This document shows positions 32,609 through 59,500 of a stretch of DNA of 64,000 bases, one piece after another (the stretch's first letter is position 1; the number at the start of each line of letters is the position of its first letter). The stretch covers positions 310,001-374,000 of the forward strand of contig NZ_JAKENF010000002.1 in NCBI RefSeq assembly GCF_021491355.1, written 5' to 3'. The position numbers and the translations under genes were made by a program. Below the pieces are notes generated by a model. That model did no database searches, was not told the DNA's origin, and saw nothing but the letters and a program-made list of their open reading frames with translations. Origin of the DNA: Alitabrizicola rongguiensis. Lineage in GTDB: Bacteria > Pseudomonadota > Alphaproteobacteria > Rhodobacterales > Rhodobacteraceae.

Positions 32609-32611
32609 AAC

Positions 32612-32631: not shown

Positions 32632-32715
32632 TTTCACTCAGAACTTGTCGCCGTGAGGTTTTCTGCAACAAGTTCGTCAACATTCACGGTTCGTCCGCGA
32701 TTCGTTCGGAACACG

Positions 32716-38385: not shown

Positions 38386-39378
38386 TTACGGCATCGCCGG
38401 GAAATCCGAGCGACCGTAGTTCTCGACCATCTTTCGTAGACCAACGGGGGTCACGACCTCGACCTTGTCGCCCCACTGATAAAGGTGCCACGCCATCTCG
38501 AGCCAGCCGCTGGCCTGAAAGCGGACAACCAGAGACCCATCCTCTTCCTCCGCAACCTCCTGATCCGGATGAAACTCGAACTCCCTCGCAATGGCGGCTG
38601 CCTCGGGCCGGAACCTCCAGACGACTTCGCCAAATTCCTTGTCGGCATGGAAGGACCCGAAGGCTCTCGCGGCATGGGTTGACAGGTCGAACTCGGCATC
38701 GCGGGCGAAGGTCTGGATGTCGAGGCGCGCGTGGCGCATCCGGTCCAGCCGGTAGTGCTGGAACCCGCCCGATTTGCCGACCTCCCGGGCGACGAGATAC
38801 CTACGTACACCGATCAGCAGACCATAGGGCTCGAGGATGCGTTCGCGGGGATTCTTTTCCTTGGGGCCTGCGTAGCTCACGACGAGCCGGAAGGGCCCCT
38901 TCAGCGCCTGGGCAATCGTTTCGAGAACCAAAGGCTCGCTCTTCACTCGCGGGCCAGGCCGTGAGGCGTAGCCATAGGCTTCCAGCACCGCCTCGGCATC
39001 GGCCTCCGCACGTCGCGCATGGGAACTCGGCATCGTGGCGAGCAGCCGATCCCTGAGCGAGGTCAGTGTCCGGACCTCGTGGATAGCTCCTTCGCGCTCG
39101 GCGCGGCGGATGCTCATTTCAAGCGCGGCAAGCTCGCTGTCGCGGATCCCCTGCATCCGCAGAAGGCTCGTGTCCCGCAGCTTCCAGCGGCGGCGGCGAT
39201 CTGCATCCGTGCGGATCTCGACACCGGGAAAGGCGTCTTCCAGCGCCTTGGTCATGCGCTGTGCCGTGCGATGATCGGCGTCGAACTCCTCAACGATGTC
39301 GGCAAGGGACACACCGGCATGACGCGCCGCGGCCATTTCGGCCAGCCGAAGAAGATCTTTAGCCTTGCTCAGGGACAT
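38386..39378 (-). CDS. WYL-domain transcriptional regulator
   Basis: The 330-residue protein has an N-terminal winged helix (KDLLRLAEMAAARHAGVSLADIVEEFDADHRTAQRMTKALEDAFP), then a WYL domain (PFRLVVSYAGPKEKNPRERILEPYGLLIGVRRYLVARE). A C-terminal WCX-like extension (FHPDQEVAEEEDGSLVVRFQASGWLEMAWHLYQWGDKVEVVTP) follows. WYL proteins are frequent repressors of defence loci and may bind nucleic-acid ligands. ATG 39378 has GGAGGACAA upstream. Confidence 0.88.
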   Translation of the reverse strand: MSLSKAKDLLRLAEMAAARHAGVSLADIVEEFDADHRTAQRMTKALEDAFPGVEIRTDADRRRRWKLRDTSLLRMQGIRDSELAALEMSIRRAEREGAIHEVRTLTSLRDRLLATMPSSHARRAEADAEAVLEAYGYASRPGPRVKSEPLVLETIAQALKGPFRLVVSYAGPKEKNPRERILEPYGLLIGVRRYLVAREVGKSGGFQHYRLDRMRHARLDIQTFARDAEFDLSTHAARAFGSFHADKEFGEVVWRFRPEAAAIAREFEFHPDQEVAEEEDGSLVVRFQASGWLEMAWHLYQWGDKVEVVTPVGLRKMVENYGRSDFPAMP

Positions 39379-39717
39379 TTGTCCTCCACCCCACACCTCT
39401 GCGCACGAGCAAGGTCCAGCAGAACCGCTGCCGCCGAAGAAATATTCAACAAAAACAAGCGATCACACTGGCACTGCGCCGTCCAGTCATCCCTTCGGCC
39501 ATTTCCGCCAGCCGTTGCCGCGATCGTCCTTTCGGAACGTGTCATCACTTTGGCGGGCCTTGGTCCTGAAATTCCATACTGCATCCGGAAGGCGGGTGAG
39601 TACAGGCTCGCGCAGCCTCCCTGACAGGATCTGACACCTTCACCTCTTATTAACGTTTCTGTGGCCGTCGGGGCGATTCCTTCGGTTCACGAGTAACTCA
39701 AGGTGAAGAGTATCCCG
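39379..39717. other. 339-base divergent intergenic region (WYL regulator / thermonuclease)
   Basis: The region should hold the promoters of the WYL gene (minus) and the thermonuclease-fold gene (plus). An AT-rich stretch around 39640-39665 (TCTTATTAACGTTTCTG) is the most promoter-like part. I saw no further gene and no convincing operator. Confidence 0.4.
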
Positions 39718-41961: not shown

Positions 41962-42717
41962 TTGACGCAAGACAACCGGAAGGTGATCCAATTGGCCGAG
42001 CGCGCCCTGTCATTTGAACAGTTGAAAGCCAAGGAGCGCCTGCTCAGGGACGGGTTCCCAGAAACTATGGCCGTCAAGGTGCATCGGGCGATTTCCTGGA
42101 TCGGCCGGGCGCAATCGGAACCCGACGACCCGGATGCTGCCTTCCTCTTCTACTGGATCGCCTTCAACGCGGCCTACGCTGATGACCAGGACGCGGATAC
42201 TCCCATCTCGGAAAGGACGCGCTTCGCCTCCGTCCTGCGCCAGATCGTGCGGTTGGACACCTCCGCCACCCTGCAGGGCGCCGTTGCCCAACGGTTTCAG
42301 GGGCCGATCAGGAAACTGCTCGAGAACAGGTATGTCTTCCGCCCCTTCTGGCTGAACGTGAATTGGGGAAGCGACGCCGACTGCCAACGCGCCTTCCGTT
42401 CTTCGGCGATGGAGGCGCGGCAGTCGATGATCGACAATGATGTCGCGCGAATCCTGATGATCGTTCTCGACCGGCTTTATGTGCTCCGCTGCCAGATGGT
42501 GCATGGGGGCACGACCTGGGGCTCCTACGTCAATCGCGATCAGGTGCGCGACGGAGCGGCCATTCTCGGCACTTTCCTTCCCGCCATGATCGACCTGATG
42601 CTGGACAACCCAGACGAGGATTGGGGGCGCCCCTTCTACCCGGTCGTGGGCAACCCCAGAAGAGGCGCGTCCGGGTCCGCGAAGCTTCAGGCGGGGACGG
42701 CAAGGACAGGTCCTTAG
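41962..42717 (+). CDS. HEPN-domain-like protein with R-x4-H motif
   Basis: The 251-residue protein has a HEPN-like helical pattern: AAFLFYWIAFNAAYADD (about residues 59-75) and a C-terminal helix pair DRLYVLRCQMVHGGTTW with Arg176-x4-His181, the RNase-type motif of HEPN toxins and Abi/ApeA-type proteins. Start is uncertain: TTG 41962 or GTG 41983, neither with a good ribosome site. Its end lies 61 bases before the five-gene operon, so it may belong to the same transcript. Nuclease activity is inferred. Confidence 0.6.
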   Translation: MTQDNRKVIQLAERALSFEQLKAKERLLRDGFPETMAVKVHRAISWIGRAQSEPDDPDAAFLFYWIAFNAAYADDQDADTPISERTRFASVLRQIVRLDTSATLQGAVAQRFQGPIRKLLENRYVFRPFWLNVNWGSDADCQRAFRSSAMEARQSMIDNDVARILMIVLDRLYVLRCQMVHGGTTWGSYVNRDQVRDGAAILGTFLPAMIDLMLDNPDEDWGRPFYPVVGNPRRGASGSAKLQAGTARTGP

Positions 42718-42778
42718 TCAAACCATTCCGGGATGATGAGTGCAACGTTGGCGAGTTTTGACGGGATTGACAGAAAAA

Positions 42779-45367
42779 ATGAGGATTGATCCGCTCTTCA
42801 CGCGACATCCGGCAACCGGTGCAATACGACCTTTGACGCCCTCGCTGTTGGCCGAGATCTATCTGGTCCCGAAGGCAAAACCGCTGGACCTTGCCTCAGC
42901 CATCCGTGCTGACGATCCCTGGGCCGCGAGCCACGCGGCCGCGCCCCGGGAAACCGAAGCGGCGCTGCAGGCGGCTCTCCGCGCCGTGGCGACCGGGACG
43001 CCAGAGATGGTTCCGTCGTCCCTGCGCCCCGAGGCCCTGCCGGACGGTCGAGCAAAGCACCATCTCACCGGCATAAAGCAGCTTTGGGAGCGGATGGACG
43101 GGACCCTTCCGGACGATCTTGCCATCTGGCGCGATGTCCTGTCCTCCTCCGCATCCGACGCCCTCGAGGCACTTCCCGTCGTCGAGAGTCCGACCTGCCA
43201 CTTCGCCAGCCCGGCCGAACGCGCGCTGGAAGACCTGTTGAGACATCAGCACGGCACGGTCAGCCACGAAGTCCAGACCGATGGGATCACCCCGCGCTTG
43301 GGCATGGCTCCGTTTGCACCGGGCGCCCTGGGGGAAATCCAGGCAGGACTTTCTTCTTCGGAAGCGGCAGTTCCGCCTGACCATAGCGTCGCGTTCTGGG
43401 GCCTGCGCGATCCGGCCGAGGAAGCGGCCTTCGCCGCAGGCATGATCCAGAAGCTGCTCGACGATGGCATTGTGGCCTCCCCCGCCGACGTCGCGATCCT
43501 GACACCCGGGAGCATATATCCTGCACTCGCCGCCGCGGCCTTCGCGACCGCAGGTCTTCCACTGTCCGGCGGAGAAGGGCCGGCCGTTCGCGATCTTGCC
43601 GCCGATCTGATGGTAAATGTGCTGCGCGTGCTTCAGGGACCCGGCGCGAGAATGGCGCTTGCAGCCGCGATCACGTCGCCGCTGATGCCTTGGTCTACCG
43701 CGCGCGGAAGCGCGATGGCCCGGCACTTGATGGACCGGGGCCACATCCGCCCCGACCCGGCATCGGCGCCAATGCTGGACCTTTTGCGTGGCCCTGTAAT
43801 CTCGGTCCGCCAGCTATTTGCGCGACTGGGTGACATTCAGGCAGCCCTTGCTGCAGATTTTCCGCAGGCCCGCGAGACATTCGCTGAACTCATTTGCCGG
43901 CTGAGGGCAGCGCTCACGCTTGAGAGCCCGGATTGGACCCTCGCCCGCGCAGTCGTCGATACGGCGCCGAGCCGCGCTCCCGCCGAACGGTTCATCGAGG
44001 GCGTAAGCCTCTTCACGGCCGATGCCCTGCCGTGGCGGCGCTGCAAGAGACTGATCGTTCTTGGTGCTGCCGGCGACGCCTATCCGACGTCGGCGGCAAC
44101 GGATCCGGTCTTTCTTGACCGCGAGAAACTCGAAATTCGCAGGCTGACGAACCTCTGGCTTCCTACGCGCGGGGAAGTGCTGGCGCGGCGTATCGAGCTC
44201 TTTCGCCGCCAACTTTGCGCGGCAACGGAGACCGTTGACGTTCTCGTGCCGGCGCTGGATTCCGGCGGGAAAAGGCTTTCGACCTCGACGGCCCATGCGC
44301 TGATGGCCAGATGTCTTGGCATTACCACGCCGGCCGAACTCGTCACCGACGTCAGCAAGGTTCCGAAAGGTTCGGTCCCGTCCCTTTCGCGCACCATTCC
44401 GCGCGATGAAGATGATGGCCAGCCCGCCCTGCCCGAGACTGGCGAGCTTGCCCTGGGAAGCGATCTTCTGTCACTGCGCAGAACCGACGACGGCAGGGCC
44501 AAGCCCCAGTCCCCCTCCCGGCTCGATACGCTCCTTGTCAGCCCTCTCGCATGGACACTGAGCGAACTCGATCTTCACGCCGTGCCCTGGAAACCGGAAA
44601 GCCTCGACGTGCTGACACTCGGCTCGCTGGCCCATGACGTGCTGGAGCATGCCTTTCCCGCCAATGCCGCCCTGCCGAGCGAGGCGGCGCTTGCATCGAG
44701 CTGCCCGGACCTTGTCGCAGACGCCGTGGCGCGGATCTCTCCTTGGCTGGCGCAGCCTGGCTGGGAAACCGAGCGGGGCGGGCTGGTCCGGGAAATCACA
44801 GCAATTGCATCCGCTTGGCGTCGCCGCCTGGAGCAACTCGGGGCGACAGTTCTTGCAAATGAAATCTCCCTGTCCGGCGAGGGCTACGGCCTGATGCTGA
44901 ACGGCCGAGCCGATTGCCTGCTGCAGATCGCCGACGGTCGCCACGTCATCGTCGATCACAAGCGGTCCCGGTCGGCCAGCCGTGAAAAACGCATGCAGCA
45001 CGGGTGGGATCTGCAGGTCGAACTCTACCGGGCCATGCTGGCAAGACCAACAACCGCTGCGCCAGTGCCCACATTCTCCGCCATAGCCGTCGCCTACAAT
45101 TGCCTGCTCGACGACCATGTGCTGTCGAATGGATTGGCCGACGCGCCCGGCATCGACGATCTCGAGAATGACATCTCGGAGTTGGCTGTCGCCGAGCTTG
45201 TCCGCCTCGCGGCGAAGCTTGGAGCCGGGCTCGTTCCCCTCGGTCGAGCCGACGATGCCAAGCGGTTCGACAAGGAGCGGGGAATGAAGGCCTATGCGCT
45301 CGACGACGCCTTCGTGTCCGCCTTCCTCTTGCCGGTCCCGGATGAACCCTCGGAGGATGCAGAGTGA
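42779..45367 (+). CDS. AddB-like PD-(D/E)XK nuclease family protein
   Basis: The 862-residue protein resembles AddB/RexB partners. It has a long helicase-like N-terminal region without a visible Walker A GKT (DHSVAFWGLRDPAEEAAFAAGMIQ, then RCKRLIVLGAAGDAYPTSAATDP). The C-terminal RecB-type nuclease has a conserved LGSLAHDVLEHAF histidine, LNGRADCLLQIADGRHVIVDHKRS (GRxD and DHK) and QVELYRAMLA (QxxxY). Its gene overlaps the next by 4 bases (GTGA). ATG 42779 is chosen; GTG 42740 is possible. Confidence 0.75.
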   Translation: MRIDPLFTRHPATGAIRPLTPSLLAEIYLVPKAKPLDLASAIRADDPWAASHAAAPRETEAALQAALRAVATGTPEMVPSSLRPEALPDGRAKHHLTGIKQLWERMDGTLPDDLAIWRDVLSSSASDALEALPVVESPTCHFASPAERALEDLLRHQHGTVSHEVQTDGITPRLGMAPFAPGALGEIQAGLSSSEAAVPPDHSVAFWGLRDPAEEAAFAAGMIQKLLDDGIVASPADVAILTPGSIYPALAAAAFATAGLPLSGGEGPAVRDLAADLMVNVLRVLQGPGARMALAAAITSPLMPWSTARGSAMARHLMDRGHIRPDPASAPMLDLLRGPVISVRQLFARLGDIQAALAADFPQARETFAELICRLRAALTLESPDWTLARAVVDTAPSRAPAERFIEGVSLFTADALPWRRCKRLIVLGAAGDAYPTSAATDPVFLDREKLEIRRLTNLWLPTRGEVLARRIELFRRQLCAATETVDVLVPALDSGGKRLSTSTAHALMARCLGITTPAELVTDVSKVPKGSVPSLSRTIPRDEDDGQPALPETGELALGSDLLSLRRTDDGRAKPQSPSRLDTLLVSPLAWTLSELDLHAVPWKPESLDVLTLGSLAHDVLEHAFPANAALPSEAALASSCPDLVADAVARISPWLAQPGWETERGGLVREITAIASAWRRRLEQLGATVLANEISLSGEGYGLMLNGRADCLLQIADGRHVIVDHKRSRSASREKRMQHGWDLQVELYRAMLARPTTAAPVPTFSAIAVAYNCLLDDHVLSNGLADAPGIDDLENDISELAVAELVRLAAKLGAGLVPLGRADDAKRFDKERGMKAYALDDAFVSAFLLPVPDEPSEDAE

Positions 45368-48300
45368 AACAAGGAATTACCCTCGTCCCTGCCGGGGCCG
45401 GGTCGGGCAAGACCCATCGGATCGAGACCGAACTGACCGCGCTGGTGACGTCCGGCGTGATCAGGGCCGAGCGCATCCTGGCTGTCACCTTCACCGAAAG
45501 CGCCGCTGACGAATTGAAGGGGCGGCTGCGCGGATCTCTCATGGCCGCCGGTCGCATCGAGGATGCGCTCGCGATTGACCGTGCCTATGTCGGAACCATT
45601 CATGGCCTTGGGCTGCGGCTGCTGACCGAACACGCCTTTGCCACGGGTCGCAATCCCTCACTCCGCCTCCTTTCGGAGGCGGAGCGGGACCTTCTCCTGC
45701 GCCAGGAGATGGGACATGGCGAGGCGCTGCGACCTGTCCGCGAGAACCTTGGACGATTTGCCTACGCTTGGGACAGGCAGACCGGCAGGAGCGCCGAGGA
45801 GCAGTTCCGCTCCAAGGTCATTGCGACCATCGACCTGCTTCGCGGCCTCGGTCCTCGCGGCCTTGATCCAGAGATCGTGCGTGATGCCGAGGCTGAACTG
45901 CGCAGGCGGTATGGGCCATGCCTAGCTGACCCTCAGGCGGCGACCGCACGACTTTCGGATGCTGTCCACGCGCTGATGTGCGCCTTTCCGAAGTGTCTGA
46001 CGGTGCCCAAAAACGTCACGGCAAACAGGGACTTCCGCGCCAACTTTGACAGCCTCCGCAAAGCGTCGCATTCACCCGATCTGCTGACGCAGGATTGGGA
46101 GTTGTGGCAGAAGCTGCGCAATCTGCGCCAGTCCAAGCGCGGATGCCCGACCCCGGACGGCTATGATGCCCTCGCCGACGAGGTGATGGCGGCTGCGGCG
46201 GTCTTGCCGAGCCACCCCGGTCCGCTCGAGGATGCCTGCATTCATCTCAGGGCGCTGGTGTGCGGGGCCCAGGAGGTGATGGCCGTCTATGCGCAGGCCA
46301 AGGTCTCGGCAGGACTGATCGACTATGCCGACATGATTTCCGACACCGAGGCGATCTTGCGGGAACAGCCCGATCTCCTGAACGCAGTGATCGGCGAAAT
46401 CGACTGTGTGGTGATCGACGAGTTTCAGGATACCAACCCGGTCCAGTTCGCCATGCTGTGGCGTCTTGCCCGACATGCACCACGTTGCCTGATTGTCGGT
46501 GACACCAAGCAGTCTATCATGGGCTTCCAGGGTGCGGACCCGCGTCTTTCGGAAGCCCTGAACCGCGCGCTGCCGGAGAGCCTTGATCCACAGCGCGAGA
46601 ACTGGCGATCGACCCCGCCGGTGATGGAACTTGTCAACGCATTGGGCCAGTCGCTCTTCGACGAAGCCTATGTTTCCCTCGCTGCCACCCGGTCCGACCC
46701 CGGACTCCCTTGGCTGGAAGTCGTCGAAGTTCCGGGAAGCAGGTCGAAGGCCGGAAAGCCGCAGGATGCCATCGCTGCGCGCGTCGCCGCGATGATTGCC
46801 GACGGCGAGCCTGTCGTCGACCGCAAGACCAGGCAAATCCGCCCCGTCCGCCCCGATGACATCGCGATCCTGTGCTACCGGCATGACCGGGCGCAGGCGC
46901 AGGCGGATGTCCTGCGGTCTCTTGGTCTACCGGTGCGGATCCAGGGAGACGGCTGGCGCGAGTGCCTGGCCGTGCGTGTCGCCGGCCATGCGCTTATTTT
47001 TGCTGCCGACCCCCATGATGCCCATGCCGCCCTGGCGTTCCTCACCCTTGGCCCCCCCCATGTCCCGATTGAGGAAGCGCTCAGACAGTCCATTTCCGGC
47101 GACCTCCTTGTCCATCCCGGACTGGATCCCCTCCGCTTGATTAACCCGAACCTGCTTTCGTTGGCCGATCTTGCGATCAAAGCCGTTTGTGCCGCCGGTC
47201 TATGGGATTGGGCCGCCGGGCTGCCCGACCCCCGGTCTGCACGGGCAGACCTCTGCCGCTTCCTGGCCGAGGCCCAGGCTTTCGACGAACTTGCCCCCGA
47301 GATCACGGCGGCGGCAGGCTTCCACGGACGACGCGCCAAGACATTCCTGGGCTGGTTGGATGCCCAGTCCGAAAAGGCCTTCAACCGTCGCCCCGACCCG
47401 GACGGCTGGTCCTCCGACGGAATCGAGATCGTCACCTGGCACGCAGCAAAGGGCCGGGAATGGCCGGTGGTCGTTGTGGCGGAGCTCGAATACGACTGGA
47501 GCGAACGCGGCAACTCTCTTCGGGCCGAATTTGAAGGGTTTGAAGACATCGACAACGTGCTCGATCATGCAGAGCTGGAGTTCACGCCGCACTTCGCAGC
47601 AAAGGAACAGACCGCGGCCTTCAAGTCTGCCCGTGAGGACGCCTGCCGAAGCGAGGCACACCGCCTGCTCTATGTCGCGATGACGCGCGCCCGCGACCGC
47701 CTTGTTATTGCCCTGCCGCCCGAACCGAGGGAGCCCAGAACGGACTTTGCGACCATCCTTCGAAGCCAATGTGGATTGAAGAACGAGGAGGATGGTGTCT
47801 GGCTGGGAGGAAAGCGCTTCACGGCACGGGTCACTGCCCTGCCATCTGTGACGCCAGCAATGGATGACGGACAAACTCGGGCAGCCACCGCGGGCTCGAC
47901 ACTTTTTGCTGAACGACGAGCGCCCATTGTCACCGGCCGCACGCCCCTGCGCGTCGCGCCTTCCTCGCTCGCGACCAAGGCGCCTGCAACACCCGTGCGC
48001 ACGATCTTCCTGGGTTGCAGGGTCGGAGGGACACCGGATGGCTTCTCGACCGCGACGGATCGCGGCACTGCATGGCATCTGGCATTTCGGGTTCTGTCTC
48101 AGCGCCCCGACCTCGCGTCTCGCCTGACCGCATCAACTGGCCTCGATGCCAACACGATCAAAGCCATCGCTGCCCAGGCCGCGGCGGTTACCGGGTGGCT
48201 TGGCGGACAGGGCTTCGCTGAACTGGCTTTTGAAGTGCCGATCCAGGTCAAGGATGCGAGCGGATCGGAGATCAACGGCATCATCGACTGCCTCGCCTCC

Positions 48301-48522
48301 GGCCCGGCAGGGATGCTCATTGTCGACCACAAGTCCGGCCCTGCTCCCGATCCCGCGGCGAGGTTCGAAGACTACCGGGCGCAGCTGATGAGCTATGCGG
48401 CGGCTCTGCAAGGCTTACAGCCCGATCGTCCGGTTTTGGGTGTCCTCATCAATTGGATGAACGAGGGCATGGTGACCCATTGCGAGCTGACCGGGTCCAG
48501 CGCAGTTCGGGAGGACGCCTGA
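45364..48522 (+). CDS. AddA/RecB-like UvrD helicase-nuclease
   Basis: The 1052-residue protein has all SF1A motifs: VPAGAGSGKT (residues 8-17), LAVTFTESAADELKGRL, CVVIDEFQDTNPVQF (about 348-362), VGDTKQSIMGFQGAD, ENWRSTPPVM, EIVTWHAAKGREWPVVVV and LYVAMTRARDRLV. The C-terminal RecB-type nuclease shows GTAWHLAFR, INGIIDCLASGPAGMLIVDHKSG and RAQLMSYAAAL. With the AddB-like neighbour it forms a two-nuclease helicase complex like AddAB, which resects double-stranded DNA ends. Its placement in a defence operon suggests a specialised version; the genome's own addAB is expected elsewhere. Confidence 0.85.
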   Translation: MKQGITLVPAGAGSGKTHRIETELTALVTSGVIRAERILAVTFTESAADELKGRLRGSLMAAGRIEDALAIDRAYVGTIHGLGLRLLTEHAFATGRNPSLRLLSEAERDLLLRQEMGHGEALRPVRENLGRFAYAWDRQTGRSAEEQFRSKVIATIDLLRGLGPRGLDPEIVRDAEAELRRRYGPCLADPQAATARLSDAVHALMCAFPKCLTVPKNVTANRDFRANFDSLRKASHSPDLLTQDWELWQKLRNLRQSKRGCPTPDGYDALADEVMAAAAVLPSHPGPLEDACIHLRALVCGAQEVMAVYAQAKVSAGLIDYADMISDTEAILREQPDLLNAVIGEIDCVVIDEFQDTNPVQFAMLWRLARHAPRCLIVGDTKQSIMGFQGADPRLSEALNRALPESLDPQRENWRSTPPVMELVNALGQSLFDEAYVSLAATRSDPGLPWLEVVEVPGSRSKAGKPQDAIAARVAAMIADGEPVVDRKTRQIRPVRPDDIAILCYRHDRAQAQADVLRSLGLPVRIQGDGWRECLAVRVAGHALIFAADPHDAHAALAFLTLGPPHVPIEEALRQSISGDLLVHPGLDPLRLINPNLLSLADLAIKAVCAAGLWDWAAGLPDPRSARADLCRFLAEAQAFDELAPEITAAAGFHGRRAKTFLGWLDAQSEKAFNRRPDPDGWSSDGIEIVTWHAAKGREWPVVVVAELEYDWSERGNSLRAEFEGFEDIDNVLDHAELEFTPHFAAKEQTAAFKSAREDACRSEAHRLLYVAMTRARDRLVIALPPEPREPRTDFATILRSQCGLKNEEDGVWLGGKRFTARVTALPSVTPAMDDGQTRAATAGSTLFAERRAPIVTGRTPLRVAPSSLATKAPATPVRTIFLGCRVGGTPDGFSTATDRGTAWHLAFRVLSQRPDLASRLTASTGLDANTIKAIAAQAAAVTGWLGGQGFAELAFEVPIQVKDASGSEINGIIDCLASGPAGMLIVDHKSGPAPDPAARFEDYRAQLMSYAAALQGLQPDRPVLGVLINWMNEGMVTHCELTGSSAVREDA

Positions 48523-49679
48523 TGTCCTTTCTCGCCTGGATCGACTTCGACCAATCCGACCGCGAGCGGACCCATCGCATCATGGACCTGTTCGCGGAGG
48601 AGGAGGCACGCGACGAACTCGGGGTCAGCGCAGTGCGCGACGGACTCTCGGACCTGATGTTTCCAGGGACGAGCACCATCCAGACCCGCCTACGCTACAT
48701 GCTGTTTGTGCCGTGGATTTACCGGCAGGCACATCGCCACCCGGGGAGTGGACTCGCGCGCGCTGAGGTCGCGCGATCGCTCGAAATCAGGTTGATCGAA
48801 GCCCTGATCGCGGGCGGCGAAAAGACGGGAGTCATCGGATCGGTCGCGAAGGGAGCGCTGAAAAGATTCCCGAGTGACGTCTACTGGGCAGGACTTGGAG
48901 TGCTGGGTATTCGTCGCTTCCATGGCAGCAGAAGCGCCTATTTCGACCTGCAGCCAGGCGCCGAAGAAAACATCGGTCTCTGGTCGGCAGGGTTGCCCGA
49001 TGAACAATTGGGCTTCCTTGACGCCACCACTTTCCGGCTCACGCGGGACGAGACCGGGTTCCTGATCGATCGGTTGCATCAGGTTGCACCCCAATCCCTC
49101 TTTCGGGAGCTTGTCGGCTCCGGCGATTCCGTTCGCTGCACCTCGATCTGGACGCATCCGATGCGGGCGACCTGGACTGAGGACAATCAGATACTTGTCC
49201 AGCATGCCGAGTTTCTTGCCTGCATGGTTCTTGGGGCCAGCCTGCTCTACAACCTCATGCTCTCGGAACTGATGTCGGAGAGGGCCGGAGAGGGATCTGC
49301 CTGGCAAGACCGGTCCGACGATTACCGGAGCCGCATCAAAGACTGGCAGAGGGAACTTGAGCAGCTCCCCTTGCAGGACTGGCGTCTCGAGGACCTGTGG
49401 CGACGCGTCGGAGCCACGGCGCACCGTGTAACGCCCTTGACCCGTCGCTTCATAGTCGAATGGCTCGAGACAACACGCCAGACCCGCTCGTCCATCTGCG
49501 ACGATCCGGATGCGCGGCGCATCATCGAACGGCGGGAGCGCACGCTGAAAGGGGCAAAATCGCGCTTCGCCAACACCGCAGCGCTGTCTCGCTGGAGCGG
49601 ATCCTCCGGAACCCAGGTTATTGGATTCCGGTGGGATCTGGTTTCGTCGCATCTGAAGGATCTGACGAATGCAGAATGA
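48522..49679 (+). CDS. DUF6361-like protein
   Basis: The 385-residue protein starts MSFLAWIDFDQSDRERTHRIMDLF and continues DELGVSAVRDGLSDLMFPGTSTIQTRLRYMLFVPWIYR, which I recognise as the DUF6361 pattern. The rest is helical, with no catalytic motif I can name. The ATG overlaps the previous stop (TGATG) and its own stop overlaps the next gene by 11 bases, so it is an integral part of the operon. Its role, possibly sensing or assembly, is unknown. Confidence 0.72.
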   Translation: MSFLAWIDFDQSDRERTHRIMDLFAEEEARDELGVSAVRDGLSDLMFPGTSTIQTRLRYMLFVPWIYRQAHRHPGSGLARAEVARSLEIRLIEALIAGGEKTGVIGSVAKGALKRFPSDVYWAGLGVLGIRRFHGSRSAYFDLQPGAEENIGLWSAGLPDEQLGFLDATTFRLTRDETGFLIDRLHQVAPQSLFRELVGSGDSVRCTSIWTHPMRATWTEDNQILVQHAEFLACMVLGASLLYNLMLSELMSERAGEGSAWQDRSDDYRSRIKDWQRELEQLPLQDWRLEDLWRRVGATAHRVTPLTRRFIVEWLETTRQTRSSICDDPDARRIIERRERTLKGAKSRFANTAALSRWSGSSGTQVIGFRWDLVSSHLKDLTNAE

Positions 49680-51510
49680 AGCGGCACTCGATCCACAGAA
49701 CCGGGCCCTATACACCGACATCCTGCGGGCGCCACATGGCTATCGTTTTGATTGCGCCTTGGCCACGACCTATACACTCGACTTCGAGACCGCCCTCGTC
49801 ATTCCCGCATCGCTGGCCTTCCAGGCGGCCGAGAGTCGAAGCGAGGTTCTCGACACGCCTCTTGCCCTGCTCGAAGGACTCGAGCGCAACGCCCGGCGTA
49901 TCGCCATTTTCTGTGAATCGGGCCGGATCCAGGGCACCCCGAAAGGGGTCAGCCGCCTGACTGCCCTTCTCGAGGACACAATCACCGAAGTCAGGGCACC
50001 GAGAGGCGGTGCGTTCCATCCGAAGATCTGGTTGCTTCGATTCACAGCCGGAAACCGTCCCCCTCGCCTGCGCCTGGCCCTTCTGTCGCGCAACATCACC
50101 AAGGACGCCTCGTGGGATCTCTCCCTGGCCCTTGATGGAGCGCGCGGACCAGAGGAGAACCCAGAAAACCAGCCGATTGTTGAGCTGTTGTCCCGGCTAC
50201 CGGATTTGGCCTCGGGCAGAAGAACTCCGCCTTCGGCCCGCGGGATTTCGGAGACCCTTGCTCAGGATCTCAAGAGCACAATCTGGGACCTTCCGCCGGG
50301 GTTCGCACGCGCGAAGTTCGCGGTGAACGGTCTGAGTGAGAAATGCTGGAAGCCGCCAGTCGGCCGCAATCTCGGTGTCATCTCTCCTTTCGTCACCGAT
50401 GACGCCCTCATCCAGTTGACCCGGGGATTGTCCCCCACCGAGGCACGGCTCCTGTCGCGGGAAGACGAGTTGGCCAATTTGATGGAAGACACGCGATCGC
50501 GCTTTGGCAGGATAGATACTCTTGATGACTTCGCCGAGGCAGGTGAGGGCGAAGATGGCGATTCAGACGACGCGATAGGTATGGCAACGGGTCTGCACGC
50601 GAAGGTTTTCGTCACGGAGCGCAAAGCAACAACACTAGTCACAGTCGGATCCGGAAACGCGACGACGTCGGCCCTGATCAACGGGCGCAATGTCGAAGTG
50701 TTCGCTACCCTGTCCGGACCGACGGAGAAGATCGGATCTACTGAAGATCAGTTTTCCGCTGCTCGGCTGGGAAGATTCCTTCGGCCATACGAGGCGCGCC
50801 CTCCCCGGCTCGATTCAGTTGTGCAGGCGGCAGAGAAAAGGGTCGAAGCCGGACTGGCGGCGCTATCGTCGAGTAAGCTGACGATGCGGTGCCGCCGAGA
50901 TGACGACGCCATCAGGCTGACCTTGTCTGCCGAAAATCTGCGTCTTCCAGACGCTCTCGACCTGCAGGCCTGGCCGTTGGTCGCCGGGCCGAACCACGCG
51001 GTCGACGCAGGTCGTCTTGCGGATGCTCCGGTAAAGCTTGGCACCGTCGCTCTTCGGGATGTCACGCGATGGCTTGGCTTCCGGCTTGTCGACCGCGAGG
51101 CTGGCATCGACAAACTGGTTTCGATTGGTGCCGAAATCGAAGGACTGCCCGCGGACAGAAACGCGGAAATCCTTCGATCGGTCATCGAAAACCGCGACGC
51201 ATTTTTGAAATACCTGGCCTTGCTTCTCGACAGCTCCGAACAGGGCATTGGATTTTCAGCGGCCATGCGAAAAGGAAGAGGCTGGAGAGAAGCCGCTGGC
51301 GAGGAGGTGCCGCTGTTCGAAGAACTGGTGCGCGCCTTTTCGAGGGACGAGAACCGTTTGGGCGATGTCGACCGGTTGATCGAAAGACTTGGTCCATCTC
51401 ATGGCACCGACGGCGTGAGTGTCATTCCGGCTGACTTCCTCGACCTCTGGAGAGTGTTCCGGCAGGCCATGCGGCAGGGACGAAACAGGAAGGGAGCCGG
51501 TCATGCTTGA
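49669..51510 (+). CDS. PLD-like protein with two HKD-type motifs
   Basis: The 613-residue protein has two phospholipase D-type half-sites: FHPKIWLLRF followed by LALLSRNITKDASWDL near residues 115-150, and GLHAKVFVTE followed by TVGSGNATTSAL near residues 308-335. This is the layout of PLD-superfamily nucleases found beside helicases in defence loci. A C-terminal helical region follows. It overlaps the neighbours at both ends (11 and 8 bases). DNA or RNA cleavage is inferred. Confidence 0.78.
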   Translation: MQNEAALDPQNRALYTDILRAPHGYRFDCALATTYTLDFETALVIPASLAFQAAESRSEVLDTPLALLEGLERNARRIAIFCESGRIQGTPKGVSRLTALLEDTITEVRAPRGGAFHPKIWLLRFTAGNRPPRLRLALLSRNITKDASWDLSLALDGARGPEENPENQPIVELLSRLPDLASGRRTPPSARGISETLAQDLKSTIWDLPPGFARAKFAVNGLSEKCWKPPVGRNLGVISPFVTDDALIQLTRGLSPTEARLLSREDELANLMEDTRSRFGRIDTLDDFAEAGEGEDGDSDDAIGMATGLHAKVFVTERKATTLVTVGSGNATTSALINGRNVEVFATLSGPTEKIGSTEDQFSAARLGRFLRPYEARPPRLDSVVQAAEKRVEAGLAALSSSKLTMRCRRDDDAIRLTLSAENLRLPDALDLQAWPLVAGPNHAVDAGRLADAPVKLGTVALRDVTRWLGFRLVDREAGIDKLVSIGAEIEGLPADRNAEILRSVIENRDAFLKYLALLLDSSEQGIGFSAAMRKGRGWREAAGEEVPLFEELVRAFSRDENRLGDVDRLIERLGPSHGTDGVSVIPADFLDLWRVFRQAMRQGRNRKGAGHA

Positions 51511-54500
51511 TCTCCGCTTTTCGGCAGAAACGGCACTTGCCCCTCTCAAGGCCTTCCAGCGAAGGACAGTCGACTATGCCTTTGCGCGGCTGTTTACCGA
51601 CCCGGATAGAACACGGCAGTTTCTCGTCGCCGACGAAGTCGGGCTGGGCAAGACTATGGTTGCCCGGGGCGTGATCGCCAAGGCCATCGAGCTGATGCAA
51701 GACAGCGTTCCAAGGATCGATATCGTCTACATCTGCTCCAATGGTGCAATCGCGCAGCAGAACCTCGCCCGGCTCAATGTGCTGGGCAACCGAGCACATA
51801 GCTTGCCTACTCGGCTCACATTGCTTCCGCTCCAGCTTGGCGGGGACAAGGGACTGCGCCGGAACCGCATCAATTTCATCAGTCTGACCCCGGGAACGAC
51901 CTTCGATCTGAAATCGTCGACCGGGACTGCGAGAGAGCGCGCATTGATCGTCCGGATACTTGACGATCTGCTTACGCCGGGCGACGGGAAATTCGCGCTG
52001 TTTCGGGTCGGCTCACGGGAAGACACCTGGCAGGTAACGCTCGCAGACATTCGATTACAGTCGATAGATGAAGAGATTGCTGCAAGGTTCCGCGCCAGAG
52101 TTGCCTCCGAACCAGGGCTGCTCGATGACATCAACGATCTCGCCAAAATCTGGATGCCCAGATCCGGCATCGAACGCGCCATGCGAGCCAGGCGCGATCC
52201 TCTGATCGCGCGGCTCCGTGGACTTCTGGCGAAGGAATGTGTTGCCGCGCTCGAACCGGATCTCATCATCCTCGACGAGTTCCAGAGATTTCACGAGGTA
52301 CTTCATGGCACCTCGGAAGCGGCGGAACTTGCTCAACAACTTTTTGAATACATTGATGAAAATGGACAGGAGTGCCGCACACTCCTGCTGTCGGCCACCC
52401 CCTATCGGATGTTGACCCTGTCTGGAGACAGTCCGGAAGAAGGGAACCATTACACCGATTTTCTTGAAGTGATGAGGTTCCTGTTTGGGAAAGAAAACGG
52501 ATTGAGCACCGTCGCCGATCTGGAGAGGGAGCTTCAGCACTACCGCGACTGCATGCTTGCCTTGCCATCCGGGTTCGATGCGGCCAGGGAGGCGAGGGTC
52601 AATCTCGAATCCCGCCTGCGCCGAGTTGTCGCCAGAACCGAACGCGTTGGCGAAACGGAAGCCCGCGATTCAATGGTTCGTGAAGTGGCAGAAACGGTCG
52701 ACGTCATGCCCGCTGATCTGCTCGAAGCACGCGCAGTTTCGGCCGTGGCCGTGGCTGCCCGTGCGCCCGGAACTCTCGAATACTGGAAGTCCGCGCCTTA
52801 CCTCATGAGTTTCATGCGGGACTACAAGCTTCGAGAGCGACTGGACTCCCAGGCTAACAACCCGACGGTCGAACTGCGCTCTGCACTCAAGTCTGTTCGA
52901 CCATTCCAGCTGAACCGGTCGGATATTGACCAATATCAGTCCATCCCGCTGAACAACGGCCGGATGCGCGCCCTCAAGCGGCTCGCCTTCGAAGCGGATC
53001 TGGCACGGCGTCTTTGGTTGCCGCCCTCTCTTCCCTACTTCGGCGCGAGGATCGAAGCGACCAAGGCACTGGTGTTCTCTGCCTGGTCGATGGTGCCAGA
53101 TGCGATTTCGGCCCTGCTTTCACATGAGGCAGAGCGTGAAATGGGAATGGGAGCCGATGGACACGGCTATTTCGATCGCCCGACTTCCCGGCCAATTCAG
53201 TTCAGGGAAGCCCAGGGGCGGCTGGCCGGGTTGCGGGCCCTCCAACTCGTCTGCCCTTCGCCGACGCTCGCGGCAGCCGTCGATCCGCTGCATATTCTTC
53301 GCGAGAACAAGCTGGTTCAGGACCACCATCACCAGCGGATCGCTGCTATGTCGGCCCTGGAGCCCCTTGCACGAGACCTGCATCGCGCACAAACCCCGCC
53401 CGATCGGGAAGTCACATGGGATTGGGCATCCCTCGCCTGGATTGACCTCCGCCAAGCCAAGTCGTTTATGGATTGGATCCAGGCGCCGGATGGCCTGACA
53501 GCCTGCGGCGACGAGGAAGCATGGCCGGCACATGTCTCAGCGCTGCATGCGGCAGCGCAAGTCGAGGGTCTCCTCGGTTCGGTTGAACTCTCAGATCTGG
53601 CGTCCCATCTCGCCGATGTCGCCCTGGGAAGCCCGGCCACCTGTGCGCTCAGGGCCTTTTCCCGAATTGCTCCCGATCTCGAGCTTTCGTCAGCTGTAAT
53701 GCTCACATCAGCGGCAAAGGTCGGCATGGGATTTCGATCGCTGTTCAACCAGCCGGAGAGCCAGGCGCTTCTGCGCGCCTCAGAAGAAGGCTATTACTGG
53801 CAATCGATCCTGCGTTTCTGTGTAGAGCATGACCTGCAATCAGTCCTCGACGAATATGTTCACGTGCTTCTCGAGGCTGAAGGCTTGCAGGGGCATCCGT
53901 CCGAAAAGGCAGTGCCGAAACTCGCGGACGCCATGGTCGCAGCTCTTTCCCTGCGGCCGGCACAGATTGATGTCGACCAGTTCGGCATCCGCCGAGGAAA
54001 GATCGTCAACACTCCCTTCAGGATGCGTGGGCGCTTTGCAATGCGCCTCGCTCCCCGAGGTGAAGATGAAAGCGGCGAACAGCGGACCGGTCTCGTGCGC
54101 GAGGCATTCAACTCGCCATTCCGACCTTTCGTGCTTGCGTCGACATCCGTAGGCCAGGAGGGTCTCGACTTCCATCCATACTGCCACCGTCTCATTCACT
54201 GGAACCTCCCTTCCAATCCTGTTGATCTGGAGCAACGGGAAGGACGTGTGCACCGCTACAAGAGTCATGCTGTCCGCCTGAATATAGCGGCTGCTCAGAG
54301 TTGCATGATGCTCAACAACGACGATCCAGACCCTTGGGCTTCGATGTTTCGTGCGGCCAAGGCCTCTGCCCAAAGCAATTCCGACCTAGAGCCCTATTGG
54401 ATCTGCCCTGGCTCAACAAGAGTGGAGCGACACACCTTGTTATTTCCCTTCAGCCGCGAGGTATCGCGACTTGCCTGGCTCAAGCAGTCCGTAGCGGTCT

Positions 54501-54616
54501 ATCGCCTTGCTTTTGGTCAGCCAAGGCAGGACGATCTTCTAGCTTGGCTGAGCAAACTACAAAGTAGCGAACCCGAGCAACCGCTGTCTGAATTTCAGAT
54601 ATCCCTAAAGCCGTGA
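51503..54616 (+). CDS. SF2 helicase (DEAD/SNF2-like) partner of the PLD protein
   Basis: The 1037-residue protein has VADEVGLGKTMVARG (Walker A, about residues 42-56), DLIILDEFQRFHEVL (about 253), RTLLLSATPYRML (about 295), and C-terminal motifs LASTSVGQEGLDFHPYCHRLIHWNLPSNPVDLEQREGRVHRYKSH (V and VI). Between them is a long insert of unknown fold. ATG 51503 overlaps the PLD stop by 8 bases and has GGGAGCC upstream. It closes the operon and could drive or gate the PLD nuclease. Confidence 0.85.
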   Translation: MLDLRFSAETALAPLKAFQRRTVDYAFARLFTDPDRTRQFLVADEVGLGKTMVARGVIAKAIELMQDSVPRIDIVYICSNGAIAQQNLARLNVLGNRAHSLPTRLTLLPLQLGGDKGLRRNRINFISLTPGTTFDLKSSTGTARERALIVRILDDLLTPGDGKFALFRVGSREDTWQVTLADIRLQSIDEEIAARFRARVASEPGLLDDINDLAKIWMPRSGIERAMRARRDPLIARLRGLLAKECVAALEPDLIILDEFQRFHEVLHGTSEAAELAQQLFEYIDENGQECRTLLLSATPYRMLTLSGDSPEEGNHYTDFLEVMRFLFGKENGLSTVADLERELQHYRDCMLALPSGFDAAREARVNLESRLRRVVARTERVGETEARDSMVREVAETVDVMPADLLEARAVSAVAVAARAPGTLEYWKSAPYLMSFMRDYKLRERLDSQANNPTVELRSALKSVRPFQLNRSDIDQYQSIPLNNGRMRALKRLAFEADLARRLWLPPSLPYFGARIEATKALVFSAWSMVPDAISALLSHEAEREMGMGADGHGYFDRPTSRPIQFREAQGRLAGLRALQLVCPSPTLAAAVDPLHILRENKLVQDHHHQRIAAMSALEPLARDLHRAQTPPDREVTWDWASLAWIDLRQAKSFMDWIQAPDGLTACGDEEAWPAHVSALHAAAQVEGLLGSVELSDLASHLADVALGSPATCALRAFSRIAPDLELSSAVMLTSAAKVGMGFRSLFNQPESQALLRASEEGYYWQSILRFCVEHDLQSVLDEYVHVLLEAEGLQGHPSEKAVPKLADAMVAALSLRPAQIDVDQFGIRRGKIVNTPFRMRGRFAMRLAPRGEDESGEQRTGLVREAFNSPFRPFVLASTSVGQEGLDFHPYCHRLIHWNLPSNPVDLEQREGRVHRYKSHAVRLNIAAAQSCMMLNNDDPDPWASMFRAAKASAQSNSDLEPYWICPGSTRVERHTLLFPFSREVSRLAWLKQSVAVYRLAFGQPRQDDLLAWLSKLQSSEPEQPLSEFQISLKP

Positions 54617-55327: not shown

Positions 55328-56365
55328 ATGCAGCAGTTCATCACTGGCCCGCGTATCGACCCGGTTATAAACAAGATCAGAGGCTGTTTATTCGGCGGCG
55401 CAGCGGGTGATGCACTTGGCGCCGAGATCGAGTTCTGGGACCTTGCTCGAATCCGCAAGAGTTTCCCCGATGGGCTGACTTCTTTACCGCGGCATGACGG
55501 CCGCCGCGCACATATCACTGACGACACCCAAATGACGCTCTTCACTGCAGAGGGTCTGATCTGCGCCATTGTGCGCGCCGGAGATAGAGGAATATGTGCA
55601 CCCGAGGCGGTAGTACACCACGCGCTGCTGCGGTGGCTTCTGACCCAAAGTGGAAAACCGCGTATGCAGGTTTCCGATGTCGGACTGGTCAACGATGTGC
55701 GTCTTCAGATTCGTCGAGCGCCTGGCAATACCTGTCTGTCGGCTCTGGCCGCGGCCAAAAAGTTCGGCGACCCCGCCAACAATGACAGCAAGGGTTGCGG
55801 CACAATCATGCGTGTATCTCCCTGCGCCTTGATCGCCGATTCCGCTGGACAGGCCGAACTGCTTGCCCGTGACACCTCGGCGCTCACCCACGGCCATACC
55901 CTCGGGATCGAGGCGGCTGTGGCCTTCGCCCGCATACTCTTTGAGGTCTTCAACGGCGCCCCTCTGAAACGCGCGATTGACAAGGTGCGGCTTTCTCCTC
56001 CAATCATGGCGGCGCTCGAAGCTGCGCTGAATGCACCACGAGACGGCCGAGCGGAAACTGTTGAGAGCCTTGGCAGTGGCTGGGTCGCCGAAGAAGCTCT
56101 TGCGATTGCCATCTATGCGGCACTCGCGGGGCGAGACTTCTGGCATGGTCTGCAGATCGCAGTCACCCATTCCGGCGACAGCGACAGCACCGGTGCAATC
56201 GCCGGAAACCTTTTGGGTCTGCTCTACCCCGATCAGGCGCAGGCGTCCCGCACACAGCTCGAATGTTCCGACTTGATCGCTCGGATTGCGCGGGACCTTG
56301 CTTTTGCCCGCCGCGATAGTACCGAGTTCGCCGCAGAGTTCGGCGACCAATACCCTGGCTGGTGA
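55328..56365 (+). CDS. ADP-ribosylglycohydrolase family protein
   Basis: The 345-residue protein has the DraG/ARH signatures: GCLFGGAAGDALGAEIEFWD, HITDDTQMTLFTAEGL (metal-binding TDDT), KGCGTIMRVSP and HSGDSDSTGAIAGNLLGLLY (C-terminal metal site). These enzymes remove ADP-ribose from proteins or nucleic acids. In a defence island it may reverse a modification by a partner toxin or an invader. No ADP-ribosyltransferase was recognised nearby. Confidence 0.88.
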   Translation: MQQFITGPRIDPVINKIRGCLFGGAAGDALGAEIEFWDLARIRKSFPDGLTSLPRHDGRRAHITDDTQMTLFTAEGLICAIVRAGDRGICAPEAVVHHALLRWLLTQSGKPRMQVSDVGLVNDVRLQIRRAPGNTCLSALAAAKKFGDPANNDSKGCGTIMRVSPCALIADSAGQAELLARDTSALTHGHTLGIEAAVAFARILFEVFNGAPLKRAIDKVRLSPPIMAALEAALNAPRDGRAETVESLGSGWVAEEALAIAIYAALAGRDFWHGLQIAVTHSGDSDSTGAIAGNLLGLLYPDQAQASRTQLECSDLIARIARDLAFARRDSTEFAAEFGDQYPGW

Positions 56366-56591: not shown

Positions 56592-59500
56592 CTAAAGGCG
56601 CTCAAGCGTAAGGAAGACAGCGCATTCCTTCTGCAGCGCCATCAGGTTGTCGATCCCGGCGGTGATGTCGAACCGCGCCTTGAGCGGGGCCAGCGCATCC
56701 ACTGTGGCGGCTTCCACAAACCGATCATGGAAATGGCGGCGGCGGTTGCGGTCTGAGGGCTCGGGGCGCAGTTGGGCAAACAACCCTTTCCTGCCAAGCA
56801 GCCGCTCGGCCTCAGCGATCTGATCGCGTAGCGGCAGGTCGGGTGTGTTGTCAGGTTCCCACACCAGCGTCAGGCGGCTCACCTGCACTCCCTGCCTCTT
56901 CAGCATGTCAAGAAAGGCCTCCAGTCGTTCGCGCTGCGGTGGGCGCGCAAGGCACCAAGGGTCTTCGATGTGCAGATCCACTTGCCGGCCGGAAATCGCC
57001 TCGAAAACGGGAGCAAGATTTCGCTGCGTGCCGGGACGATAGTCAAAGCGGCGGATTCGGGCGTTGAAGGCCTCCAGCACGCCCTTTCGCAACGAAAGCT
57101 CACGGATGTTGCACCCTATCCAGCTTTCCGTCACAGCCCTGCGCCCGAAATGCGACACGCCCGCCAATGGCCCTTCCAGCACAGGGGCTGCATCGGCCTC
57201 GGCCCAAAATTCCTCTACCGCATCGGTCTTGACCACCGTCAGCCGCGGTGCTGCGGCAAGCCGATCGGCACGGGTAAGATGAACCTCGATCTGTGCATTG
57301 CGCTCATACTCCACCAATCCGTCCACCAGGCGCCGGTCCAGCCCCGTGGCTTCGGCCCCGGCCATATCGGCCGTCTCCGGAAGCAGGTAATAGAGCTTCC
57401 TCGTTCGATCATCGTCCAGCCAACGGCGCAAGGCCCGCAGACTTGCGGCCGCCTGTTCATGCCCCTGCGCGCCCCAAAGCTGTTGCGCAGCAAGAATGAT
57501 TAGGCTGGCCCCCTGCAGACGCAGGCCAAGTGTTTCGGCCGCGGTATTGGCAATCGGCACCACATCCGCCGGCGCAAACGGGGGCCGGGGTTGCGTCTGG
57601 GCCAGCACGCCCGTAAGCCAGGCTCGCACTGGGTGCCGGTTCAGCTTGTCCCAGTGCTGCTGGTTGGAAAAATCGTTCAGGCAGTGCGGGCAACTTGTCT
57701 CGCAGGCATCGCCGCTCGGGCATTCCAGGATCTGCAAGGCCCGCCCGATCACGGCGCGCGCGGAAAAGCGTGGCTCATCATCGGCCAGAAGGCGGCGGCA
57801 ATAGCCAGCCCCGCCCGGCACGGCGTCGGACAGGATGACCGACGGCTGCCCGGACGGAATCTCGGCCGTGGCGCGGATATCGCGCGGGTCCGTCTCCAAC
57901 AGGTCGGTCGCCGCCAGCCTCAGCGCCTCTGACAGCGTGCGGACAAAGCCTTCGCGTGCCTCGCGGGTTTCACTTTCCTTCTTACGCCCAAAATCGGGCA
58001 AGGGGGTCGAAAAGCGGATCGCCCGCAGGTCGGTTTCGAAGATGTGGGCCAGATCGACGGGCCAGCCCAGCTTGTCCACCTGGCAGGTCTCGCCGCTGCG
58101 TGGATTGTTGTGGCGCTTCTGCACCTCGGCCCCATGTGCCAGATCACGCGGGGCGGGCATGGCGAACTCGCAGCGCGGACAGCACAGATAGCCCCTGCCC
58201 TGCGGACCACGGTTCACGATGAACATCTGCCCCGGCTTTTCCCTGCTGCGTGGTACTGCCGGGGCGAAAAAGCTCATCACACCATTCAGGTCGGACGGTC
58301 GGAAGTCCTCTTCCATCGCGCGGGTCAGCAACCGCGCCTCATCCACCGGTCGGACACGCAGGCGCGATGAACCGGGGTCACGGCCCATGCGCCCGGTGTA
58401 GGATGTAAGGAATCCGAAGGGTTCGATGAAGCGCGCCTTCAGCCCTTGCTGGCCAGCCCCGCATTGCGGGCAACTTTCCTCGAAGCCCTCGCGGTCGTCG
58501 TGAATTTGCACATGGTTGCAGGAAGGGCAGATGCGGTAATAGCCCTTTTCGGTCCAAGCATCCCCGCCGCCGATCGCAGCCTTGCGGGCGATGCCTTCGC
58601 TGGTCCAGATGCGGCCCCCCGCCACCACCTCAGCCCCAGGAGCATATTCCGCGATGGCAAGGCTGGCATCCCTGTCCAGTTGCAGCGCTCGGCCCTGATC
58701 GCCGTGCGACTGTTGATCGGTCACGATTTCCAGATGAATGGAATGAACTGGGAAGCTATAGGTCGGGATCACGGCTGCGCGCGACATCGCCTCGACCACA
58801 AACCGGTCCAGATACAGCTTCTTGTCGCGCATCCGGCCGTTTGCCCGTCTTAGCGCCTTCTGGGCTTCCGCATCAGTCGTGGCCGCATGATGCGCAGCCA
58901 TGGCCTGTTCATAGCCCTCGTGTATCCCGCGCCAGCGCCCGGCGATTACGGCGACAAATCCTTCCACCTTCTGCAGGAAATGCGCCGCCAGATCGGCCCC
59001 GCGCAGGGCGACCGACGCCAGCGAACCGGGAAGCGTTCCCGCCAGAGCATCGGCAGATGCTAGCGCCGCCTTGCCCGCATCCGACGCCAGCCAGGATCGC
59101 AGATCGGCCAGAATGGCGGCTTCGCGCGCATGGTCCAGATTTTCGCCGAGAATGTCGCGCAACTGCGGCGCGCCTGTCTTGGTGGAACCAGCAAGGCGAT
59201 GCTCCAGCCAGCCCGACAGGATTATGGACACCTGGTGACGGCGGAAGAAGTCGGGGTTTTCTAGGGTCAGGTAGGGCGGCGCCGGCAGCGCCTCCAGATA
59301 GGATTGCAGGTTGCGGAAACTAGACTGGTCATACCGGCTTCCCCGCGCCAGCATCAGGGCAATCGGCGCGACTTGTGCCCGTCGACCGGCACGGCCCGCA
59401 CGCTGCTGGTAATTCGCGATACCCGGCGGAACGTTGCGGCAGAACACGGCCTCAAGATCGCCCAGATCAACCCCCATTTCCATCGTGGTGGTGCAGCTAA

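Follow-up and report, generated by a model that had tools for sequence, protein, structure and literature searches.

The window analysed here, a stretch of 64,000 nucleotides from Alitabrizicola rongguiensis (contig NZ_JAKENF010000002.1, positions 310,001 to 374,000, forward strand), contains a five-gene operon in which a pair encoding AddB-like and AddA-like proteins directly precedes homologs of the three genes of Azaca (ZacABC), an anti-phage system reportedly described by Millman et al. in 2022. Comparison with other loci shows that the two genes of the pair are inherited together and have repeatedly become re-joined to separately inherited ZacABC genes, usually directly upstream of them. 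Azaca itself is already known, and what appears new here is its recurrent coupling to an AddAB-like pair. Our preferred explanation, to which we give an even chance of being right, is that the operon is Azaca with a closely coupled accessory helicase-nuclease of the AddAB type, which would act as a private and mobile DNA-end processor for its partner systems.

The five genes (42779-54616, Table 1) all lie on the forward strand, were intact and free of internal stops when their frames were re-read, and overlap successively by 4, 1, 11 and 8 bases, as a first-pass annotation of this DNA had described. That annotation had also recognised a DUF6361-like protein, a double-HKD phospholipase D (PLD) protein and a superfamily 2 (SF2) helicase in the last three genes, and profile comparison agrees. 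Gene 3 matches DUF6361 (PF19888, E-value 6.3e-97) and, over residues 24-407, positions 2-393 of the 396 in the PADLOC profile ZacA (5.9e-113). Gene 4 matches ZacB (1.3e-159, profile positions 2-583 of 586), has no Pfam match at an E-value of 0.01, and contains two HxK/SxN motif pairs (FHPK at 116 with LSRN at 139, and LHAK at 309 with GSGN at 327), the residues H117/K119 and H310/K312 being invariant in all 11 aligned sequences, the window's included. Gene 5 matches ZacC (1067 bits, profile positions 5-1016 of 1019) as well as the Pfam families DEAD and Helicase_C, and carries the motifs GLGKT (47), DEFQ (258), SATP (297) and QREGRVHR (911). The three genes are adjacent on the same strand in the order A-B-C (48522-54616, overlaps of 11 and 8 bases). 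The Zac genes belong to Azaca, since the list excerpted from PMC12278908 has the entry "Azaca (ZacC)", and a PLD-like domain is given for Azaca in an excerpt of PMC10952713. The earlier proposal that the five genes form an undescribed system therefore stands only in part: on their profile matches genes 3-5 are a named anti-phage system and not a new one, whereas coupling to an AddAB-like pair was found in none of the models and papers searched. The literature searched held no mention of Azaca with AddAB, of Shango with AddAB, or of DUF6361, although the main Azaca paper or its supplement could still mention the pair.

The first two genes encode two RecB-type nucleases, one of them with superfamily 1 (SF1) helicase motifs, again in agreement with the first-pass annotation. 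Gene 1 has a predicted active PD-(D/E)XK nuclease at its C-terminus, PDDEXK_1 (2e-17) as its one Pfam domain, no PADLOC match and an NCBIfam match only below the cut-off, while gene 2 matches UvrD-helicase (3e-45), UvrD_C and PDDEXK_1 (1e-6). The helicase motifs of gene 2 are GAGSGKT (11), DEFQDT (352), HAAKGREW (693) and YVAMTRAR (770), and its nuclease residues are H905, D975, D988-x-K990 and Q1007-x3-Y1011. The corresponding residues of gene 1 are H632, D725, D739-x-K741 and Q759-x3-Y763, numbered from an alternative upstream start at 42740 (13 is to be subtracted for the start at 42779). We aligned 80 accessory pairs in which both genes are long, five near-copies having been excluded beforehand. 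The AddA columns for GxGKT, DEFQDT, motif V/VI and the nuclease, and all six AddB nuclease columns, are occupied by a single residue in 93% or more of these pairs, and no AddB (0/80) has a Walker A pattern within its first 120 residues. Most pairs are thus predicted from their conserved residues to combine one motor with two active nucleases.

This pair is not the chromosomal addAB. Against the family model addA_alphas (TIGR02784) gene 2 scores 173 bits, short of the equivalog cut-off of 860.75, and accessory AddA proteins found in a scan for housekeeping addA score 90-308 bits. The housekeeping addA of the same genome scores 1243 bits and lies on another contig (C5) beside a second PDDEXK_1 protein. 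A housekeeping addA above the curated cut-off is present in 22/22 genomes, the window's included, all chosen for carrying the pair or Azaca. The possibility that the pair is the only addAB of the genome, named in the first-pass annotation as one ground for reading the five-gene unit as a chance join, is excluded by this separate gene. The iron-sulphur cysteines of AddB include a C-terminal CxxC. This motif is found in none of the 80 accessory AddB proteins and is also missing from the genome's own housekeeping AddB.

Scanning a collection of genomes with an alignment of ZacA yielded 416 relatives, and the loci of the best 80 together with that of the window gave 81 ZacA loci for comparison. 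The pair lies directly upstream of zacA on the same strand in 40 of these (one, L066, with a split addB and another, L097, with broken frames throughout). In three further loci (L098, L108 and L110, the last two being copies) a helicase that we call AddH stands between the pair and zacA, and in two (L100 and L104) a complete pair lies about 2.9 kb upstream of ZacABC. A contig edge cuts AddA in seven loci and AddH in two, and in six the contig is short. Clustering at 90% ZacA identity gave 49 clusters, of which 29 have the pair, 12 have none, three have a remnant (the class in which L100 and L104 are filed), three are short and two end at a contig edge. The two betaproteobacterial loci have a whole pair (L087) and a partial one (L086). 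The distance from the addA stop to the zacA start was obtained for 43 loci (the 40 direct loci less L097, plus four plasmid loci): it is -1, a 1-bp overlap, in 14, and at most 10 bp in 31.

Genome samples drawn at random are less biased. Among 385 genomes of the class, DUF6361 is found in seven and the AddB-like protein in eight, with six genomes having both (Fisher 4.5e-11, or 1.9e-9 without the window's own genome); AddB-like calls were made below an E-value of 1e-70, the next matches being 7e-17 and weaker. ZacA matches 45 plasmid records, for which adjacency was judged by position against a table giving 60 of the 64 AddB records: at least 10 have the pair co-directional upstream and one (Sphingomonas NIC1) has it divergent, while in four Bradyrhizobium elkanii records the pair lies about 25 kb from ZacA, and 19 Cronobacter records are absent among the 60 AddB records listed. 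Annotated plasmids with the pair include those of Bradyrhizobium 195, Rhizobium sullae and Agrobacterium fabrum, and annotated ZacABC plasmids without it those of Cronobacter, Halomarina (an archaeon), Phaeobacter, B. elkanii USDA 61 and Haliscomenobacter. Viral sequences yielded no phage record with the pair and one IMG/VR contig. As the first-pass annotation had anticipated, the same five genes are found elsewhere in the same order, next to other defence genes. A mere coincidence of two unrelated sets of genes in one genome, which would account for the many Azaca loci without the pair, is scarcely credible and was rejected on the locus counts, the short gaps between addA and zacA, and the co-occurrence in the class sample, which persists without the window's own genome; the plasmid records repeat the same neighbourhood.

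The five proteins do not form a single co-inherited unit. When pairwise distances are compared over 44 five-gene loci, the correlation between AddA and AddB is r 0.996 and that of ZacA, ZacB and ZacC among themselves r 0.982-0.987, whereas Add and Zac distances correlate at only r 0.625-0.648. All these values are higher than in 500 of 500 permutations, which for the last indicates some shared history of Add and Zac. For example, the loci L043 and L109 have AddA proteins 0.84 identical and ZacA proteins 0.44 identical, and L081 and L107 have ZacA proteins 0.74 identical and AddA proteins 0.24 identical. On an AddA tree the label Azaca requires at least 14 changes, with the provisos that this FastTree phylogeny (83 accessory and 21 housekeeping rows) gave long-branch warnings and contains two odd housekeeping rows, and that the labels depend on the flank available. 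The distance correlations and the changes on the AddA tree therefore show that separately inherited modules repeatedly meet at the same place. An exchange is visible in two loci, a Leisingera plasmid (L027) and Palleronia (L094), which have 8346 bp in common at 98.4% identity; the common stretch comprises genes for a WYL protein and an ADP-ribosylglycohydrolase, addB, and addA except for roughly its last 130 bp. Past this point L027 continues into a cassette of a protein termed X404, a PLD-type protein and a helicase, and L094 into ZacABC. Two other loci (L032 and L028) have the pair alone in common (5.8 kb at 98.2%).

The X404 cassette is one of several other partners. An unnamed set of X404, a PLD-type protein and an SF2 helicase replaces ZacABC beside the pair in L027 (17498-23053), L023, L025, L032, L031 and L226. 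It lies downstream of the pair in Haematobacter, Fuscovulum, Leisingera and Novosphingobium and upstream of it in Paracoccus and the viral contig L226, with a 4-bp overlap in the latter, and the pair is present in 5/7 X404 plasmid records. The PLD protein of the cassette bears a weak resemblance to ZacB (E-values 4e-9 and 7e-9; profile comparison probability 41), and X404 was considered as a distant ZacA and rejected when profile comparison found nothing (probability 0.5). The cassette is a candidate undescribed defence system. Shango genes recognised by PADLOC lie 2 bp upstream of addB in L149 (G678; SngA, SngB and SngC) and in Sulfitobacter D7 (L167; SngA and SngC). By annotation Shango also accompanies the pair in Methylorubrum CM4, and in G1133 it is convergent with the pair. 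Of 680 Shango-helicase plasmid records 45 were listed, and in eight of these the pair adjoins by position, at 2 bp to about 1.1 kb; six of the eight are near-copies. AddH, a 1113-residue ResIII/SWI2-SNF2 helicase, follows the pair in several loci (L167:17062-20400, L168, L148, L190, L111 and L112). The seven AddH plasmid records with at least 80% identity all have the pair, and the three next (40-44%) are absent among the 60 AddB records listed. Systems found near the pair without overlap are BREX-1, type III restriction-modification, a CBASS cyclase with E1-E2, Gabija, HmaA and DrmD. On a Desulfosarcina plasmid (L171, 7513-17152) genes for the CBASS cyclase, E1-E2 and a JAB-type protein immediately precede addB-addA and share their strand, an arrangement in which the pair seems to occupy the place of the CBASS effector. 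Two genes follow the pair at L187 (13392-16792), the first with partial REase_II-like PADLOC matches and the second with none; by eye we take them to be McrB/McrC-like.

Several observations weigh against a functional coupling of the pair to Azaca. Taking the best 80 of 416 ZacA relatives over-represents near relatives and alphaproteobacteria, and none of the seven gammaproteobacterial loci has the pair. Seventeen of the 81 loci are without it in at least 6.2 kb, so that the pair is not required; two of them have an AddA-like frame, convergent downstream in L088 and upstream on the other strand in L056. The first-pass annotation had named, as another part of the case for a chance join, the occurrence of the PLD/helicase half without the pair in most genomes; this is partly borne out by these loci and by the plasmids of Cronobacter, Halomarina and Phaeobacter. 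Four more loci (L036, L040, L086 and L090) have a remnant or partial AddAB upstream of ZacABC, and since these remnants adjoin ZacABC, ZacABC can persist without the pair. The ZacABC frames of the same four loci look whole. Strict patterns also miss some pairs, Walker A being found in 73, DEFQDT in 78 and the AddB DxK in 68 of the 80. DUF6361 is carried by 17 distinct genomes of the family (394 genomes), class (385) and phylum (398) samples taken together; one of them (G301) is counted as uninformative, and linkage is seen in only seven. A whole pair is co-directional with the DUF6361 gene in G000, G566, G661 and G1047. In G389 AddA adjoins in the piece examined (L006) and L039, a contig of equal length, shows the whole pair, in G452 the pair is convergent with a break between two contigs, and in G417 AddA is at a contig edge. 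The piece examined of G933 ends with a fragment of AddA, 3.4 kb downstream, G457 has the pair elsewhere in the genome, and G678 has it on other contigs, adjacency not being judgeable there as the Zac contig begins 0.5 kb upstream. The flanking pieces examined of G386, G324, G149, G168, G967 and G904 contain no pair. Linkage of the pair to Azaca is common, not universal.

The pair in turn occurs without Azaca. Searching genome samples with an AddB alignment, two of the samples being centred on genomes known to carry the pair, gave 22 pair loci: seven with Azaca (including one convergent across a contig break and one diverged behind AddH), two with Shango, one with AddH alone, one with divergent DrmD/Mod-Res genes, two on contigs that are too short, and nine without a recognised partner, among them G1228, in which the piece examined has no AddA. 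The pairs on plasmids of Aminobacter, Bradyrhizobium 192 and B. elkanii likewise have no recognised partner or core cassette. These loci, the variety of unrelated systems near the pair (Gabija, CBASS, type III restriction-modification and BREX-1) and the presence of a WYL protein near 9/33 pair loci without Zac are as expected if the pair is a self-contained defence module, often with WYL, that is merely stacked at a site of cassette exchange and does not cooperate with ZacABC. We consider this possible, well short of an even chance, as the 1-bp overlaps with zacA and the predominance of gaps of 10 bp or less, together with the 4-bp overlap with the cassette's helicase in L226 and the 2-bp spacing from Shango, exceed what stacking needs. 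An explanation in terms of partnership could extend beyond Azaca: in the islands and plasmids of alphaproteobacteria a mobile, often WYL-associated helicase-nuclease of the AddAB type may be an exchangeable part of several unrelated defence systems (Azaca, Shango, the X404-PLD-helicase cassette and perhaps others), used instead of host AddAB, a generalisation that is in our judgement equally likely to prove right or wrong.

The anti-phage action that we infer for the operon would proceed as follows. From their families, ZacC would translocate on or sense foreign DNA and ZacB would cut or nick it, with ZacA as a putative adaptor for ZacC. The AddAB-like heterodimer would load on the ends, unwind and degrade both strands, and so make the cut irreparable. 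Phage inhibitors of host AddAB exist, and a pair separate from host AddAB could evade them and work without Chi control; the same pair would do likewise for other systems. Retention of the AddAB catalytic residues and a location on islands or plasmids beside nucleases would also suit a backup repair enzyme, which mends double-strand breaks when a phage blocks host AddAB, or collateral breaks made by ZacB. This is improbable given the housekeeping addA in every genome of the 22 and the defence cassettes that make up the recognised neighbours. A constant module with many effector-like partners fits a shared sensor, which binds phage DNA ends and passes them to the partner effector, as well as it fits a shared effector. 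A pure sensor, however, would not need the two nuclease sites that are kept in at least 93% of the pairs aligned, and we consider this role very unlikely.

Table 1. Genes of the operon and associated features, with positions in the window.
Feature	Position	Strand	Details
Gene 1, AddB/RecC-like	42779..45367	+	ATG, 862 aa
Gene 2, AddA-like SF1 helicase with C-terminal nuclease	45364..48522	+	GTG, 1052 aa
Gene 3, ZacA, DUF6361	48522..49679	+	ATG, 385 aa
Gene 4, ZacB, PLD-type with two HxK motifs	49669..51510	+	ATG, 613 aa
Gene 5, ZacC, SF2 helicase/translocase	51503..54616	+	ATG, 1037 aa
HEPN-like protein directly upstream of addB	41962..42717	+	relatives near addB elsewhere
WYL-domain regulator, divergent, 3.3 kb from addB	38386..39396	-	PADLOC WYL
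ADP-ribosylglycohydrolase	55328..56365	+	PF03747, 9.6e-64

Three neighbouring genes may be connected with the operon. The HEPN-like gene is a probable member of it: the window protein has no Pfam match, its relatives in L025 and L027 carry the NCBI name "HEPN domain-containing", and in L042 and L059 the gap between a relative and the addB that follows it is 23 and 65 bp respectively. The WYL protein is a candidate regulator of the module: of 76 pair loci whose upstream sequence reaches 3 kb or more, 40 have a WYL gene no further than 4 kb upstream of addB, counted with a search model seeded by eight WYL proteins from these same loci. The ADP-ribosylglycohydrolase is possibly associated, and a gene for such an enzyme lies within 4 kb upstream of addB in seven other pair loci. 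Further downstream (56592-62531, reverse strand) the window encodes a 1979-residue YprA-type helicase with an MrfA zinc-binding domain, whose best PADLOC matches are DruE1 and DruE3. Its neighbour gene (62528-63997, reverse strand) has no match, and further on, beyond the window (L114), a DUF499 protein is encoded whose N-terminus carries a Swt1-like HEPN domain. This region is probably a Druantia- or ARMADA-like neighbour. On the other side, a tRNA-Cys gene stands beside a phage-type integrase gene (32535-33789), a possible left end of an island carrying the operon; in the DNA pieces examined, nothing as long as 15 bases from this stretch was found repeated. Near the integrase is a gene (34517-37465, reverse strand) for a 982-residue UvrD helicase of the DNA-helicase-IV type with a topoisomerase zinc ribbon.

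Annotation tools stop at core gene sets defined by co-location, and a recurring fourth and fifth gene changes the make-up of the Azaca machine in many alphaproteobacteria. A shared helicase-nuclease, if confirmed, would offer an explanation, open to testing, of how systems that nick or cut DNA complete its destruction while phages disable host RecBCD or AddAB. The natural swap, in which the same pair is joined either to ZacABC or to the X404 cassette, predicts that this cassette, as yet undescribed, is functionally analogous to Azaca.

Among known systems, DISARM, Mokosh, PLD_Helicase and PDC-M27 resemble the operon in having a PLD-type protein and an SF2 helicase. DISARM combines the DrmA/DrmB helicase pair with the PLD protein DrmC, and Mokosh a PLD-type protein with an SF2 helicase. 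The operon differs from DISARM, PLD_Helicase and PDC-M27, its matches to which are weak or confined to the helicase core (DrmC 0.0049, DrmD 2.6e-15 and PDC-M27C 8.9e-20, as against 1067 bits for ZacC). In PADLOC, the DrmA match to gene 5 is confined to its helicase core (residues 898-949), and neither DrmB nor Mokosh is among the matches listed for the five genes. Some Shango operons have the same pair directly downstream, although Shango has TerB and a BrxC/D-type ATPase in place of DUF6361 and PLD, and no Sng match is among the PADLOC families listed for the five genes (25 of 51 for gene 2). From Azaca as modelled in PADLOC 2.0.0 the window locus differs in being preceded by a coupled AddAB-like pair, which that release does not assign to Azaca; the 25 of 51 matches listed for gene 2 are the helicases GajB or RTasHel. 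The closest likeness of the pair itself is to housekeeping AddAB, which also consists of one SF1 helicase and two RecB-type nucleases, with a B subunit that lacks Walker A in the pair and in the genome's own AddB. In contrast to housekeeping AddAB, the accessory pair splits from 19/21 housekeeping rows on the AddA tree, the two odd long rows aside, and is often plasmid-borne.

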